Positions 12,468-30,897 of a stretch of 34,529 nucleotides of DNA are shown here, in pieces. The notes below the pieces were generated by a model, which had not been told where the DNA came from, ran no database searches, and was given only the letters and a program-made list of their open reading frames with translations. Source of the DNA: a virus; the IMG/VR virus record IMGVR_UViG_3300029258_000545, positions 1 through 34,529 of that record; one strand, given 5' to 3'. A program made the translations under genes and the position numbers. Numbering within the stretch: the first letter of the stretch is position 1; every line of letters begins with the position of its first letter.

Positions 12468-12806
12468 ATGACAAATGTTATTGAGCGCGCAAAGGCGCAT
12501 TTTGCACAAGAGGGGCCGAAAGAAATAGAGGTCCCGGAATGGGGCGACGAAAACGGGCCGTTGATTATTTATTCGTCGCCCATGACATTACAGGATCGCG
12601 ACGTTTGTCTTGAACAGGCGGGCGGGCCGAATCTAAAATTTCATTTATATGCAATTATTCGAAAAGCAAAGGACGCCGACGGAAATCCGATATTTACCAA
12701 GGCAGATAAAAGCGATCTTCTTTATAAGGTCGATCCGTCGGTTTTGATTCGGGTCGGGGCCGAGATCGTCGGAACGACAAGCGTCGAAGGAATGGAAAAA
12801 AATTAA
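12468..12806 (+). CDS. tail assembly chaperone (G-like)
   Basis: Protein of 112 aa, ending at TAA 12804-12806. It occupies the G position between the tube and tape measure genes and carries typical chaperone features (RAKAHFAQEGPKEIEVPEWG, PMTLQDRD, FTKADKSDLLYKVDPSVL). These proteins hold the tape measure during tail assembly. The gene ends in a run of seven As immediately before its stop, the slippery site for a longer frameshifted product (12468-12946). GGGGGGCGGG leader upstream of the ATG. Confidence 0.85.
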   Translation: MTNVIERAKAHFAQEGPKEIEVPEWGDENGPLIIYSSPMTLQDRDVCLEQAGGPNLKFHLYAIIRKAKDADGNPIFTKADKSDLLYKVDPSVLIRVGAEIVGTTSVEGMEKN

Positions 12807-12946
12807 AAAGCGACCCGGTATTGTTCGACGAATATCGGGTCGCGGCATTTTTGCATAAAACCCGCGGCGAAATAATGCAAATGACGATCAAAGAATATTT
12901 TGGTTGGCTTGCATTTTTAAAAATTATTGAAGGGGACTCGTCATAA
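12468..12946 (+). CDS. frameshifted tail chaperone (G-T-like)
   Basis: A -1 shift on A AAA AAT (12797-12803) bypasses the stop and continues with 47 residues starting LKSDPVLFDEYRVAAFLHKT and ending FLKIIEGDSS, about 159 aa in total. The extension ends at TAA 12944-12946, whose last A is the first base of the tape measure ATG. This is the gpG/gpGT arrangement of lambda, where the long form recruits tube protein to the tape measure-chaperone complex. No independent start codon or ribosome site explains the extension. Confidence 0.88.
12797..12843 (+). promoter_or_regulatory. programmed -1 frameshift signal
   Basis: Slippery heptamer A AAA AAT at 12797-12803, in the correct phase, then a 6-base spacer, then a 13-bp stem: GCGACCCGGTATT (12810-12822) pairs with AATATCGGGTCGC (12831-12843), one G-U pair, 8-base loop. 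The zero-frame stop lies in the spacer. Heptamer, spacer and hairpin match the classical stimulated frameshift layout. Confidence 0.88.
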
Positions 12947-14172
12947 TGGCCAAAGGCGTTAAGTTTGACATCAAGGCACAAAACAAGACCGACGCGGCCT
13001 TTAAATCCGTTAAGGGCAATTTAAAATCAATAACCGGCGGATTGGGGGGCATGAAAACGGCCATGTTAGGCATCGGCGCGGCCGTCGGCGGCGTTTATGC
13101 GTTGGGAAAAGGCATTTCCGTCGTTACAAAGGCGGCCATGGCGCAACGCGACGCGGAAAACAAATTAAATTCGGTCCTGGAAGCGACCGGACACGCGGCC
13201 GGGTTCACATTGCCGGAACTTAAAAAAATGGCGTCCGGCTTGCAAGATGTCACGACATACGGCGACGAAACCATATTGTCGGGAATGTCGATACTTGCGA
13301 CGTTTAAGAATATCCGGGGCGAAGGGTTCGAACGGACGACAAAGGCCGCGCTTGATATGTCAACGATATTAAAAACCGACATGAAATCATCAATGATAAT
13401 GTTAGGCAAGGCGTTGAACGAACCGAAAACCGGATTGACCGCGTTGACCCGCGCCGGCGTTACCTTTTCCGATCAGCAAAAAGAGCAGATCAAAACAATG
13501 GTCGAAGCCGGGGACGTTGTCGGCGCGCAAACAATAATATTAAAGGAATTGGAATCGCAATTCGGCGGCGCCGCGGAAAAGGCCGGCGGGCCGTTTGACA
13601 AGGCGCTTAAGCAATTAAAAAACACGTTCGGCGATTTATTGGAGGAAGTCGGGTTCGCCATTGTTGACAATGAACAGTTTGCGGAAGTTTTAAGGATTTT
13701 AAAGGAGTACGTCGCCGACCTTATTCCGGTTGTTACCGGGTTGGTTCAACGTTTCTTTGATTGGTTGGGGCCGATCGATCAATTACGCGGCAAGCTTGAT
13801 ATGTTTTTGCATACAGTAAAAACGATGTTATGGCCGTTACAGCAAGCATGGAATTTAATGAAGTTGGTCGGGAAGGGAATCGGGATCGGGGCGGCCATGG
13901 CCGTAACCGGCGTTGAAAAAATAACAGGAAATTACGACACCGGGACAGGGCCGGCGGGATTGCCGCGGGACGGTCTTTTTTATGGACATCAAGGCGAAAT
14001 CGTTATGGACGCGGCGGAGTCAAGCGCGGCGCGATCCGGCGCGGGCGCCGGCCGAATTAATATCACAATTGCACCGACCTTTATGTCGGGCGATCGTAAC
14101 GCGGCGCGGGAAGTCGCGCGCGAAATAGGCCGGGAATTAAACCAATTAAATATAAGGTGGGGGACCGCGTAA
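12946..14172 (+). CDS. tape measure protein
   Basis: Protein of 408 aa. The N-terminus (FDIKAQNKTDAAFKSVKGNL) and the following hydrophobic segment (GGMKTAMLGIGAAVGGVYAL) are typical of tape measure proteins, as are KALNEPKTGLTALTRAGVTF and the helical middle. A second hydrophobic stretch is at residues 310-330. It sets tail length. At 408 aa it is short compared with lambda gpH (853 aa), so a short tail of roughly half lambda's length is expected. Its start overlaps the stop of the frameshifted chaperone (TAATG). Confidence 0.9.
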   Translation: MAKGVKFDIKAQNKTDAAFKSVKGNLKSITGGLGGMKTAMLGIGAAVGGVYALGKGISVVTKAAMAQRDAENKLNSVLEATGHAAGFTLPELKKMASGLQDVTTYGDETILSGMSILATFKNIRGEGFERTTKAALDMSTILKTDMKSSMIMLGKALNEPKTGLTALTRAGVTFSDQQKEQIKTMVEAGDVVGAQTIILKELESQFGGAAEKAGGPFDKALKQLKNTFGDLLEEVGFAIVDNEQFAEVLRILKEYVADLIPVVTGLVQRFFDWLGPIDQLRGKLDMFLHTVKTMLWPLQQAWNLMKLVGKGIGIGAAMAVTGVEKITGNYDTGTGPAGLPRDGLFYGHQGEIVMDAAESSAARSGAGAGRINITIAPTFMSGDRNAAREVAREIGRELNQLNIRWGTA

Positions 14173-14917: not shown

Positions 14918-14930
14918 TTAGGTGGTACAA

Positions 14931-17612
14931 TTGAAAACCTTGTCAGCATTTGCAACCGCGGCGATTGATAGTCCGCATATCGACCCGATTCGTTTAGTTG
15001 AATTAACGATCGGGTCAACGACGTTGTATTTATGCGACCGCGTATTCGGCGACGATGGGCTTTGTTCATTCGACGGCCATATTTACGAACCGTTTATATT
15101 AGCATGGGGGACCATTACGCCGGGCCGAATCAACCCGGTTACATATAAGGGCGAACCGGGCGAACCATCGATCACGATCGATAATTCGAAACCGATCGGG
15201 GGGGCGGATCGGTTCACGACATTATTCGCGTCAAATGATCCGCATTATTGCACGATTACGATTTCGGATATATTCGAAGGCGCAACGGCCGAAGCCGACA
15301 AGGTCCCGTTGTTTGTCGGTCAAATAGAAGACACGCTTGAAATGACGCTTGATCGCGTTACCCTATCCATATCAAGTTATGACCTGGATATAATCAATAA
15401 ATTTTCTCATTCGATATTGACGGCCGACGATTATCCAGGGGCGGACCCGGACGATATCGGAAAAATGATTCCGCAAATTTACGGAACCGTCAAACGATCG
15501 CCATGTCTTTCAGTCGATGCCGGCGGAAAGTCGACGATCACCGAAGACATGACGGATTCGTCGCCCGGACATTCTGACACGTTGGATATTTCAGACGCGA
15601 CCGCCTTTCCATTGACCGGATCGTTTACGATCCAGATTGACGCGGAGCAATTATTGATTTCTTCCCGTTCCGGCAACACCTTAACAGTCGGCGGGCGCGG
15701 TTACAATTCGACGACGGCCGTCGCGCATGATTTGGGGGCGCCATGCGCGGAGATACAAACGGAGTATGTTTACATTATCGCCGATCATCCGGTTAAATCG
15801 ATTGACGTTGTATATGTCGACGGCATTCGACAAACGACCGGATTTACGGCATACACCGGGCAAAGCGGCGACGAATACAGCGGATACGCCGGCAAAGCGG
15901 TTGTCGTCTTTTCAGCATTGCCGACATTTACAAAGCAAGTTAATGTCGACGTATCGGACACGATCGATGTTGACGACACGATCGACGTATCGGACACGAT
16001 CGATGTTGACGACACGATCGACGTATCGGACACGATCGACATATCGGACACGATCGATGTATCGGACACGATCGGAGTCGACACCGGATCGCATGGCCAT
16101 TCAGCATCAGGTTATGAAACTATTATTTGGACCTTTGACACCTATTCCGTCACCGGCGGGGCGATATCTTTCCCCTGGGCCGCGATAGATTCAGATTGGA
16201 ATACGGCGGCCACGTTTGACAGCGCCGCAGACGTTATGACCGTTCAACCGGGTTATTATCGGGATTACTCCGGTCCGCCTTATCAATTCCGGGTTTGTGC
16301 AAGATCGGGGGCATTTGACGGGGGGACGATTACCTTTACATGTTTTGGTGTAACGGTTTCAATGGTTGCGTCAAATACGACATACCGTTCTTCATGGACG
16401 GCCGTTTCATCGGGTTGGGACACATGGGCCGAAATGAACGCATTGTCGGGAACCATTAATTGCACCGGAGCGCCGGCGACACAGTCCAAGGTTGCCGAGG
16501 TTTGGGTTGAAATTAGATATTATGTGAGTGTATCAGCGAGCGCCGCAACGGGCGTCGCAAAGACCGGGTCCGCGACAAAGACCGGGTCCGCAACAAAGAC
16601 CGGGTCCGCGACAAAGACCGGGTCCGCGACAAAGACCGGGTCCGCGACAAAAACGGGCGCCGCGACAAAAACGGGAACCGTTACATTGACCGGGAATTCA
16701 ACCGCGGAAACCGTAATCGGAATACGGATCGCGGTTGATTGCGACGGTTATCTTGACGACGGCGCCGGGACATACACCGGGACGCCGTCGGCGTTGATAG
16801 AACGGCCGGACCATATCGCGAAGCATGTTTTAATCGATCGATGCGGATTGACGTCGGACGAAATCGATTCGACGTCATACGCCGCGGCAGGGACATATTA
16901 CGCCGCGGAATCGTTTGTTTTGGGGTTTGTTATCCTTCAAAGGCCGAACGTCCGATCATTGTTGAACCGGATCGCGCGTCAATCGAGGTCAATCGAATTT
17001 TGGGACGCCGGCGCCCATTTCTTAAAGCCGATTCAGTACGCGGCCATTGATAAGACAATCGACGGAAACCGGGTCGATTTAGGTCAAATATGGCTATCAT
17101 ATACCGACCGGGTTAATATCAAAAATACTATTATCGGCCGGTATGGTCGACAGTGGTCGGGGCATGACGACGAAGAAACGGCGGACAGGGCCGTCGTTAC
17201 CGCGATCGATGCGGCAAGCGTTTCTAATTTGGGGACATTGCAGGGGGACCCGCTTTCTTTTCCATACGTTGCCGGGGAAGTGCAAGCACAAGCTTTATTG
17301 GATTGGGCGCTTGACGATCTAAAGGGCGCCCGTCTAATGGTCGAATTTGCCGGCGGTTATTATTTGGAAGATATACAACGCGGCGACCTTATCGGGTTTG
17401 ACGTCGACAACGACGAAACAATTAATTCCGCATTGTTGGGCCTTGTTTCGTACTACCTTGACGCGTTCAGAGTCCTTGAAAAGAGTTACAGAAACGACGG
17501 CGCGATCCAATTAAAAGCGGTCGTTGCCTATGTAATTGATTTTATGACGACCGAGGCGGGCGATTTCATTACTACCGAAGCGGGCGATTTATTAATATTA
17601 GAAATAGAATAG
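14931..17612 (+). CDS. tail tip hub protein with two tandem-repeat linkers
   Basis: Protein of 893 aa. TTG at 14931 has AGGTGG 5 bases upstream; GTG at 14922 has no such site. Residues 1-280 are a hub-like beta domain (IRLVELTIGSTTLYLCDRVF, GEPSITIDNSKP, VPLFVGQIEDTLEMTLDRV). Residues 341-382 are seven 6-aa repeats of (V/I)(S/D)DTID type. A Ser/Thr-rich beta domain follows, then six TGSATK-like repeats (545-580). The C-terminal third (ALIERPDHIAKHVLIDRCGL) is again hub-like, ending with TTEAGD twice. It probably sits at the tail tip and contacts the fibre. Confidence 0.7.
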   Translation: MKTLSAFATAAIDSPHIDPIRLVELTIGSTTLYLCDRVFGDDGLCSFDGHIYEPFILAWGTITPGRINPVTYKGEPGEPSITIDNSKPIGGADRFTTLFASNDPHYCTITISDIFEGATAEADKVPLFVGQIEDTLEMTLDRVTLSISSYDLDIINKFSHSILTADDYPGADPDDIGKMIPQIYGTVKRSPCLSVDAGGKSTITEDMTDSSPGHSDTLDISDATAFPLTGSFTIQIDAEQLLISSRSGNTLTVGGRGYNSTTAVAHDLGAPCAEIQTEYVYIIADHPVKSIDVVYVDGIRQTTGFTAYTGQSGDEYSGYAGKAVVVFSALPTFTKQVNVDVSDTIDVDDTIDVSDTIDVDDTIDVSDTIDISDTIDVSDTIGVDTGSHGHSASGYETIIWTFDTYSVTGGAISFPWAAIDSDWNTAATFDSAADVMTVQPGYYRDYSGPPYQFRVCARSGAFDGGTITFTCFGVTVSMVASNTTYRSSWTAVSSGWDTWAEMNALSGTINCTGAPATQSKVAEVWVEIRYYVSVSASAATGVAKTGSATKTGSATKTGSATKTGSATKTGSATKTGAATKTGTVTLTGNSTAETVIGIRIAVDCDGYLDDGAGTYTGTPSALIERPDHIAKHVLIDRCGLTSDEIDSTSYAAAGTYYAAESFVLGFVILQRPNVRSLLNRIARQSRSIEFWDAGAHFLKPIQYAAIDKTIDGNRVDLGQIWLSYTDRVNIKNTIIGRYGRQWSGHDDEETADRAVVTAIDAASVSNLGTLQGDPLSFPYVAGEVQAQALLDWALDDLKGARLMVEFAGGYYLEDIQRGDLIGFDVDNDETINSALLGLVSYYLDAFRVLEKSYRNDGAIQLKAVVAYVIDFMTTEAGDFITTEAGDLLILEIE
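15951..16076 (+). repeat. seven 18-bp tandem repeats, in frame
   Basis: Units of type GTATCGGACACGATCGAT alternate at first with GTTGACGACACGATCGAC; seven units run without gaps. Each encodes six residues such as VSDTID or VDDTID. Such in-frame arrays can expand or contract without breaking the protein. Confidence 0.95.
16563..16670 (+). repeat. six 18-bp tandem repeats, in frame
   Basis: Units ACCGGGTCCGCGACAAAG, four near-identical followed by two slightly diverged, plus a decayed seventh to 16688. They encode TGSATK repeats, a flexible Thr/Ser/Lys linker. Confidence 0.95.
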
Positions 17613-22691: not shown

Positions 22692-23825
22692 TTACCAATC
22701 AAGCGGAGGCAATTTTTCAATAACGTCGCGCTTTAATTCCGTATCGACATGTTGATATATTCGCGTCGTCGTATCGGGCCGGGAATGTCCAAGCAGTTCG
22801 GACGTTGCTTTTAAGTCGGACCCGGCGCGCAAAGCGGCCGTTGCGAACGCATGTCGGAAATCATAAGGACGAAGTCGTCGGGAAATCCCGGCGTTTTTTT
22901 TGGCCGTTTTAAAAGAACTAATAATCGTTTTCACCGGGCGCCCGCGAAATTGGACGATGTATTCGCCGGCGCCGTTTGATTCGTCCAGGGCGCGCCATTT
23001 CCGCAAAAGGTCGGCGAAGTCTTTATGCAGGGGGACGGAACGGGATCGCGGGCCGTTCTTTTTGGCGGACCGGATAAAGATCGATCCGGCGCCGAAATCG
23101 ACGTCGGTCCATTTAAGGGTTAATAATTCGACATGGCCAGGTCGGATTCCGGTATAATACGAGATCACAAGGGCGCGCAATAGATGGGGCGGGGCTTGTT
23201 TTAAAAGCCGGCGGGTTTCGTCCGCGGTCGGGGGCGCGATAATTTCGTCGTCGCGTTTCGGTTTCTGATATCCGGCCGCGGGATTATGGGTCAAGTATTT
23301 GTTGGCGACCGACCAATTAAGGACCGCTTGAATGTCGCACAATTCACGATGAACGGTCGACCGTTTGATATATGCCGGCGCGCCGTCGGGTCCGGTTATA
23401 GGCTTTTTCTTCCGCAGGGTCCCGCCGGGACCGTGACATATCGTTGTTGTCTTTTGGGTTTTTAATCTTTTGGCGACGTATTGGTCGAATCGCCGCGGGT
23501 TTAATTTGATTGCCGGCGTTTGTCCTAATTCTGGAAGAATGACATTCGCCATTTTTATTTTTAAATAGGCCATGGTTGATTGTTCGATAATACCGACCCG
23601 CGATTCTAAATAAGCATTGACCAATTCAAAAAAAAGCGGCGAACTGTTTTTCGGGGTCCGTCGTTTCCAAGGTCTATTGTCTAATTCCTTATCGCGCTCG
23701 CGGGCTTTTTTTTCGCCGTCGATACCACGGCCGAAATATTCGCGGGTCCGTTCCGGGGCGTCTTTTATGGTCCCCTTTCGATATTGGACGATCCATCGGC
23801 CGTCTTTTAATTTATGAAAAGACAT
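22692..23825 (-). CDS. int: tyrosine-type integrase
   Basis: Protein of 377 aa. Catalytic residues by eye: Arg228 (TGIRPGHVELL), Lys255/256 (RSAKKNG), Arg324 in YDFRH, His347 (LLGHSRPDTTT) and nucleophile Tyr357 (RIYQHV). The usual HxxR histidine is Tyr321, a variation seen in some family members. Residues 1-55 resemble an arm-binding domain (DGRWIVQYRKG), 60-180 the core-binding domain. No clear ribosome site precedes the ATG, so translation may be weak. It likely acts on the tRNA-Ala core 1 kb away. It lies downstream of the repressor in the same direction, so they are probably co-transcribed. Confidence 0.93.
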   Translation of the reverse strand: MSFHKLKDGRWIVQYRKGTIKDAPERTREYFGRGIDGEKKARERDKELDNRPWKRRTPKNSSPLFFELVNAYLESRVGIIEQSTMAYLKIKMANVILPELGQTPAIKLNPRRFDQYVAKRLKTQKTTTICHGPGGTLRKKKPITGPDGAPAYIKRSTVHRELCDIQAVLNWSVANKYLTHNPAAGYQKPKRDDEIIAPPTADETRRLLKQAPPHLLRALVISYYTGIRPGHVELLTLKWTDVDFGAGSIFIRSAKKNGPRSRSVPLHKDFADLLRKWRALDESNGAGEYIVQFRGRPVKTIISSFKTAKKNAGISRRLRPYDFRHAFATAALRAGSDLKATSELLGHSRPDTTTRIYQHVDTELKRDVIEKLPPLDW

Positions 23826-23857
23826 AATAATTATTTGTAATAAATTATAATATTTGA

Positions 23858-24274
23858 TTATTTCGTTGATTTATAGTCGTCAAGCGAAATAACACGGCGG
23901 TCTTTTTTGCGACGTTCAGTTACGCCGTCCCATTTCTCATTTACCCCTGGTAAAAGTTTGTCGATGCTTTTCATAACCTTGTTCAATTCCCGATCGTTCA
24001 TTTTTTCAACCAAGGCACAATATTCCTTGATGAGTTTTGACCTTTCACTTTTCTTTATAAAATCAGTGATGTTTTCAAAGCCTAAAAAAACAACCGATTT
24101 ATTCAGAAGATCATAACTGCCCGGTCTTTTCCCGTTTAACACGTCGCCTATATGCCCGGCCGATATTCCAATATGTTTTGCGATATCTGATTTTGTCAAA
24201 CCTTGTTCTTTTCGAGCTTTGTTAATTTCAGCGGCCAAAGCAAACCTGTCTGGCATCCCGTCAATATTAAACAT
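23858..24274 (-). CDS. CI-like repressor (XRE family)
   Basis: Protein of 138 aa. Residues 12-55 contain an XRE helix-turn-helix (EQGLTKSDIAKHIGISAGHI). There is no LexA-like peptidase domain; the C-terminus is helical and charged. Such short repressors usually need another signal for induction (antirepressor or anti-CI) rather than RecA cleavage. GGGGGG lies just before the start. Transcribed leftward from a near-consensus promoter at 24309-24337, with integrase behind it. Confidence 0.8.
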   Translation of the reverse strand: MFNIDGMPDRFALAAEINKARKEQGLTKSDIAKHIGISAGHIGDVLNGKRPGSYDLLNKSVVFLGFENITDFIKKSERSKLIKEYCALVEKMNDRELNKVMKSIDKLLPGVNEKWDGVTERRKKDRRVISLDDYKSTK

Positions 24275-30096: not shown

Positions 30097-30897
30097 ATGG
30101 CGGATAACGGACCGCAGATTGAAAATGGCTATACAAGAATCGCCGATGAAATTATCGATGCATTGGCGCGTTATCGAATACCGGGCGAACAAATGCAATG
30201 CCTTTTTTTAATAATTCGGAAGACATACGGGTATAATAAAAAGGTCGATTCGATCTCCTTATCTCAATTCGTTGACGGAACAGGATTAAAGAAGCCGACG
30301 GTTTGTCGCGCATTACGCGAATTAAAGGAAAAAAACCTAATTATTATCAAAAATGATAACGGGGGCGGCAAAGAATACAGGTTTAATAAGCATTACGGGA
30401 CATGGCGCCCGTTATCAAAAAAGATAATATTATCAAAAAAGATAACAAACGTTATCAAAAATGATAATAAACCGTTATCATTTTTGAGTACTACAAAAGA
30501 TAATATAGATAGATATATATATAATCTTCTTTTCTGTTTTTGGAATGAACAAAAAATTATTGTTCATAGAAAACCAAACCGGGACATTAAGACCGCTTTA
30601 AAAAAGGCTTTAAAGGATTATGAAATCGAAGATATTATTGACGCCTTTTTTAATTATTCCGCGGTCGTAAAATCAAAAAAACATTATTTTTCGCACAAGT
30701 GGACCTTGAAAGATTTCATAAATCGGGGCTTGCCGAAATTTGTCAACGAAGCGGACCCGTTAAATAATTTTCTTGACGATAAATTCAAAGATGAAAATTC
30801 GGAATATTTCGGGACATGCCCTGGATGCGGCCGGCCGAATATTGAATTGACCGAAAAGGGCATTTGTCTTGAATGCACAAGAAAGGGGGTAAAATGA
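30097..30897 (+). CDS. replication initiator (lambda O-like)
   Basis: Protein of 266 aa. The N-terminus (QIENGYTRIADEIIDALARY, RKTYGYNKKVDSISLSQFVD, GLKKPTVCRALRELKEKNLI) is the winged-helix origin-binding domain of phage O proteins. Residues 83-130 are encoded by the iterons of the origin. The C-terminus has a zinc ribbon (Cys241, Cys244, Cys257, Cys260), not present in lambda O. No P- or DnaC-like helicase loader follows, so host functions or an unrecognised gene must load the helicase. Stop overlaps the next start (ATGA). Confidence 0.85.
   Translation: MADNGPQIENGYTRIADEIIDALARYRIPGEQMQCLFLIIRKTYGYNKKVDSISLSQFVDGTGLKKPTVCRALRELKEKNLIIIKNDNGGGKEYRFNKHYGTWRPLSKKIILSKKITNVIKNDNKPLSFLSTTKDNIDRYIYNLLFCFWNEQKIIVHRKPNRDIKTALKKALKDYEIEDIIDAFFNYSAVVKSKKHYFSHKWTLKDFINRGLPKFVNEADPLNNFLDDKFKDENSEYFGTCPGCGRPNIELTEKGICLECTRKGVK
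30342..30540 (+). other. replication origin: iterons and AT-rich region inside the O-like gene
   Basis: Four 16-bp palindromic iterons of type TTATCAAAAATGATAA or TTATCAAAAAAGATAA lie at 30344-30359, 30412-30427, 30430-30445 and 30452-30467. A partial inverted copy (GTTATCATTTTTGA, 30474-30487) and a half-site (30494-30503) follow. An AT-rich segment (about 30500-30530, GATAATATAGATAGATATAT) comes next. This mirrors lambda ori: initiator binding sites within its own gene next to an unwinding region. Confidence 0.8.

Follow-up and report, generated by a model that had tools for sequence, protein, structure and literature searches.

A Probable Lambda-Type Programmed -1 Frameshift in the Tail Assembly Chaperone Gene of a Phage

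The tail assembly chaperone gene described here very probably carries a programmed -1 ribosomal frameshift of the lambda G/GT type (probability about 0.94). The window, the whole 34,529-nt stretch of DNA analyzed (IMG/VR record IMGVR_UViG_3300029258_000545), had been interpreted in this way by an earlier sequence-only reading, and both the anatomy of the locus and its relatives point in the same direction. The case for an ordinary G/GT frameshift is built on conservation of the heptamer phase and of the extension, on the fit of the fused product to a single PHROG, and on the annotation of the homologous gene in the phages RcCronus and RcRhea. What the sequences show directly is the anatomy, the conserved phase, the conservation of the extension as protein-coding sequence, and, in relatives, stop codons that confine the shift site. 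The device is well known; what the window adds is a rare slippery heptamer and a strong hairpin. A second chaperone product, GT, is predicted for the phage of the window.

Anatomy of the Chaperone Locus

All elements of the locus lie on the plus strand. The zero-frame gene G (12468-12806) encodes a 112-aa tail assembly chaperone (PHROG 16513, E 1e-6), directly followed by the gene for a 408-aa tape measure protein (12946-14172; PHROG 27166, E 2e-46). Both the chaperone identity and the tape measure neighbor had been proposed beforehand, and this gene order is the one expected of a G/GT locus. The 3' end of G reads ATG GAA AAA AAT TAA, so that the slippery heptamer A AAA AAT (12797-12803) stands in X XXY YYZ phase to the zero frame and, as in most relatives, abuts the zero-frame stop codon TAA (12804-12806). 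The -1 frame is open for 47 codons (12803-12943) and closes with a TAA (12944-12946) that shares one base with the tape measure ATG (12946); this T extension (12803-12946 with its stop), joined to G, gives a 159-aa GT protein. A 6-nt spacer, TAAAAA (12804-12809), separates the heptamer from a 13-bp stem predicted by folding, with a 5' arm at 12810-12822, an 8-nt loop at 12823-12830, and a 3' arm at 12831-12843 that contributes one G·U pair (G12818·T12835). Upstream, AAGGA (12787-12791), 5 nt 5' of the heptamer, is a possible Shine-Dalgarno (SD)-like element of uncertain role. The sequence-only reading had located the heptamer to the exact base, and its spacer holding the stop, its 13-bp stem, and its 47-residue extension ending on the tape measure start were all recovered.

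The fused 159-aa protein matches PHROG 16513 at 53 bits with both parts covered, vs. 30 bits for G alone, so the family, which it fits along its length, already represents the fusion. A profile of the extension, built from the other loci with that of the window left out, matched the extension of the window at 1.1e-16, with no other hit in the window. Neither G nor T gave a significant match in Pfam, and no convincing relatives were found among solved structures. Relatives of the tape measure protein occur mostly with other chaperones. Farther along, positions 14922-17612 encode a protein of 896 aa, without a PHROG match, in which short repeats (SDTIDVDDTIDV and TKTGSA) form two internal stretches, and an integrase together with a helix-turn-helix regulator on the minus strand (22692-24274) suggests a temperate phage.

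Conservation of the Heptamer and Extension

Relatives were collected from the viral and genome contigs searched and from phage records, giving 55 non-redundant loci with the window included. By the criterion set in the sequence-only reading, relatives that keep the extension and lose the heptamer phase would have undermined it; 51 of the 55 have an X XXY YYZ heptamer in phase, with its last base 0 or 3 nt from the zero-frame stop that follows, and the -1 extensions of these 51 span 45-61 aa. The most frequent heptamer is A AAA AAC (29 loci), followed by G GGA AAC (10), A AAA AAG (8), and A AAA AAA and A AAA AAT (2 each), the last being carried by the window and by L087, a contig from a Rickettsia-symbiont MAG. 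Among the four remaining loci, the overlap lacks a heptamer in L100 and L179, whereas that of L171 and L176 lies farther upstream. The extension is conserved in 11 loci whose -1 frame, like that of L179, opens at most 10 nt before the zero-frame stop; in the 11, this -1-frame stop leaves only the heptamer region for a shift. A separate pattern search, combining A AAA AAT next to a stop with a D..[EV]L-like extension, returned 60 contigs, none with the chaperone family.

Strength and Recurrence of the Hairpin

The region 12804-12860 folds with a minimum free energy (MFE) of -25.5 kcal/mol (z -5.3 against dinucleotide shuffles). Under a stricter null of 20,000 synonymous recodings that preserve the -1 peptide and the codon usage of the phage, the MFE was -10.2 +/- 3.6; only 5 of the 20,000 recodings were at least as stable as the native sequence, and a perfect stem of at least 13 bp at a suitable spacing arose in 90. 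Given the shuffle z and the 5 recodings as stable, it is unlikely that the stem merely follows from the peptide it encodes or from base composition. The plus strand of the 34.5-kb window holds only three other perfect 13-bp short-loop stems, G·U being counted as a pair. No simple pseudoknot was found (no 5-6-nt match to the loop within 117 nt downstream), nor were there matches in Rfam, in a tRNA search, or in an exact-match search for this hairpin in viral contigs. Elsewhere in the window a cluster of inverted repeats (30342-30657) includes two imperfect long ones and one perfect 13-bp repeat.

Among relatives the picture is more varied. Hairpin z-scores against synonymous recodings average -1.09 over 53 loci (t-test p 9e-6, with loci that are not independent), and the extremes are L004 (-5.0) and the window (-4.7). 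The earlier description of the hairpin as unusually well formed thus holds insofar as its z is the second most negative of the 53, and is to be qualified insofar as a minority of relatives have similar ones. A sliding 42-nt structure profile of 51 loci has a minimum at +6 past the heptamer (mean -1.43; below -2 in 15 of 51) and climbs to about -0.5 by +15. A second low about 210 nt upstream of the heptamer, inside G (mean z -1.29; 17 of 51 below -2), means that the profile has features besides the one at +6; this upstream excess is absent in the window (z -0.4). Comparable hairpins recur at spacings of 4-7 nt with differing sequences and loop lengths, and L005, with nearly the same extension as the window, has none. 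Because of this variation, and of L005, the hairpin counts as recurrent and not strictly conserved. Among isolates, the hairpin of phage R4C is strong (z -3.6) and those of HTVC111P and HTVC112P have 7 bp.

A Possible Upstream SD-Like Element

SD-like stimulators of -1 shifts are described 9-14 nt upstream of the shift site (PMC5009743). The AAGGA of the window, at 5 nt, falls short of this range, the one expected of the optional stimulator at dnaX/IS911-type sites. Across the family, SD-like 4-mers precede the heptamer in 33 of 51 loci vs. 15.9 +/- 3.0 expected under synonymous recoding, an excess concentrated 6-7 nt before the heptamer, part of which may come from shared ancestry.

Proposed Mechanism

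Shifting itself and the rate at which it occurs, a stimulating effect of the hairpin, and what G and GT do in tail assembly are inferred. Most ribosomes would terminate at the TAA at 12804 and release the 112-aa chaperone G. A minority would slip back on A AAA AAT by a single base, tRNA-Lys and tRNA-Asn both re-pairing on AAA AAA, while the 13-bp hairpin stands at the mRNA entry, at a distance of about 6 nt; these ribosomes would read 47 further codons to yield the 159-aa GT. By analogy with lambda, G may bind the tape measure protein, with recruitment of the tail-tube protein falling to the T part, so the slip rate would set the G:GT ratio. In the established model for such sites, the P- and A-site tRNAs slip in tandem while a structure lies ahead of the ribosome (PMC4066793); the same source gives heptamer-structure spacings of 5-8 nt. 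The stem of the window starts 6 nt past the heptamer, within this range, as at dnaX/IS911-type sites, and is for this reason counted in favor of the frameshift reading.

Two observations count against it. One is the AAY-type A-site codon: for E. coli, the same source reports that A-site codons made entirely of purines or of pyrimidines shift better, that AAY is less shift-prone than AAR, and that A AAA AAC, in an assay of all 64 heptamers, is of low efficiency (PMC4066793), though such E. coli efficiencies may not be those of the host. The other is the absence of a hairpin in many relatives, L005 among them. A strong hairpin may make up for a heptamer that is weak; across the family, a pairing of weak heptamers with stronger hairpins was not significant (z below -2 at 14 of 48 non-AAG vs. 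0 of 10 AAG sites; Mann-Whitney p 0.13). That the family tunes its G:GT ratio by combining an SD-like element at 5-7 nt, a stop-abutting heptamer, and sometimes a compensating hairpin is a tentative and rather doubtful proposal, in which the SD spacing is non-standard, the heptamer in most cases belongs to a class weak in E. coli, and the strong hairpin is found in some members.

Alternative Explanations

It is rather unlikely that frameshifting is real and the hairpin incidental, the heptamer and adjacent stop being sufficient. In most relatives the hairpin is not significant (z below -2 in only 13 of 53), L005 carries the extension without a stem, and prokaryotic sites do not always show structures (PMC4066793); yet the stem of the window lies far beyond the synonymous null at the correct spacing, and its equivalents at 4-7 nt arise in unrelated stem sequences. 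Reading the stem as a transcription terminator or attenuator is very improbable. A terminator scan does list it, followed by GGCATTTTTG, and the other strand, too, has a T-rich stretch after the stem, but the T run begins 4 nt past the stem, the scan gives 22 such sites vs. 15 expected by chance, and tail genes continue downstream on the same strand. Read on the minus strand, the stem has a mismatch in place of the G·U pair and folds less stably (-16.1 vs. -21.6).

The -1 product might also be reached without a shift of the ribosome. Slippage of RNA polymerase would produce it from an altered mRNA, and the heptamer does sit in a run of seven A's (12796-12802), slippage being established at runs of nine (PMC5009743). 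However, the G GGA AAC of 10 of 51 relatives contains no long homopolymer, the run at several A AAA AAC sites is just six A's long, and the codon phase is always the same, making polymerase slippage highly improbable. Less credible still is a separate gene in the -1 frame, reached by reinitiation after the zero-frame stop. A TTG at 12821 lies in that frame with the stop close by, but in 25 of 53 relatives the first 10 codons of the extension include no ATG, GTG, or TTG, the match of the fused protein to one family runs without a break, and the in-phase heptamer would be left unexplained. Ribosomal frameshifting at the heptamer remains the preferred reading.

Related Systems and Significance

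The heptamer of lambda is G GGA AAG, from which the A AAA AAT of the window differs, as had been remarked at the outset, being also rare in its own family; dnaX uses A AAA AAG, and its -1 frame gives a shorter product. In lambda, the G/GT gene precedes the tape measure gene and a -1 shift near the end of G yields a short and an extended chaperone (PMC5009743), and the window is alike in position, in the site of the proposed shift, and in its two predicted chaperone forms. At E. coli dnaX, an A-run heptamer is followed by a 3' stem-loop of about 11 bp and preceded by an SD-like element (PMC5009743). The window resembles it in all three respects, whereas its -1 frame leads to a longer product and its SD-like element is nearer than 9-14 nt.

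Closer counterparts exist in Rhodobacter phages RcRhea and RcCronus (Cronusvirus; PHROG 16513), whose chaperone is deposited as a joined CDS and was published as a -1 translational frameshift (PMC4882933). Their G and T parts are homologous to those of the window, their heptamer likewise abuts the stop, and the tape measure gene comes next, with an extension of 46 aa vs. 47; they differ in a G GGA AAC heptamer, a TGA stop, a different hairpin, and the frameshift annotation itself. Dinoroseobacter phage vB_DshS-R4C likewise has the homologous gene, a heptamer abutting the stop, and a strong hairpin about 5 nt after it, but its heptamer is G GGA AAC and its deposited record has the short product only.

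Two features of the window are individual, its rare A AAA AAT (2 of 51) and a hairpin far beyond what the peptide requires; it is not unique, since a minority of relatives, R4C among them, have comparable hairpins. The chaperone family offers a set of natural variants, with five heptamers, with and without hairpins, in one protein family, which let one ask how phages attain the frameshift rate they need using heptamers weak in E. coli. The deposited records of at least 8 cultured relatives (R4C, HTVC026P, HTVC202P, HTVC111P, HTVC112P, CRP-406, CRP-821, and CRP-811; loci L260, L083, and L323-L328) list the short chaperone alone, and in each the heptamer and -1 extension are present, unannotated.
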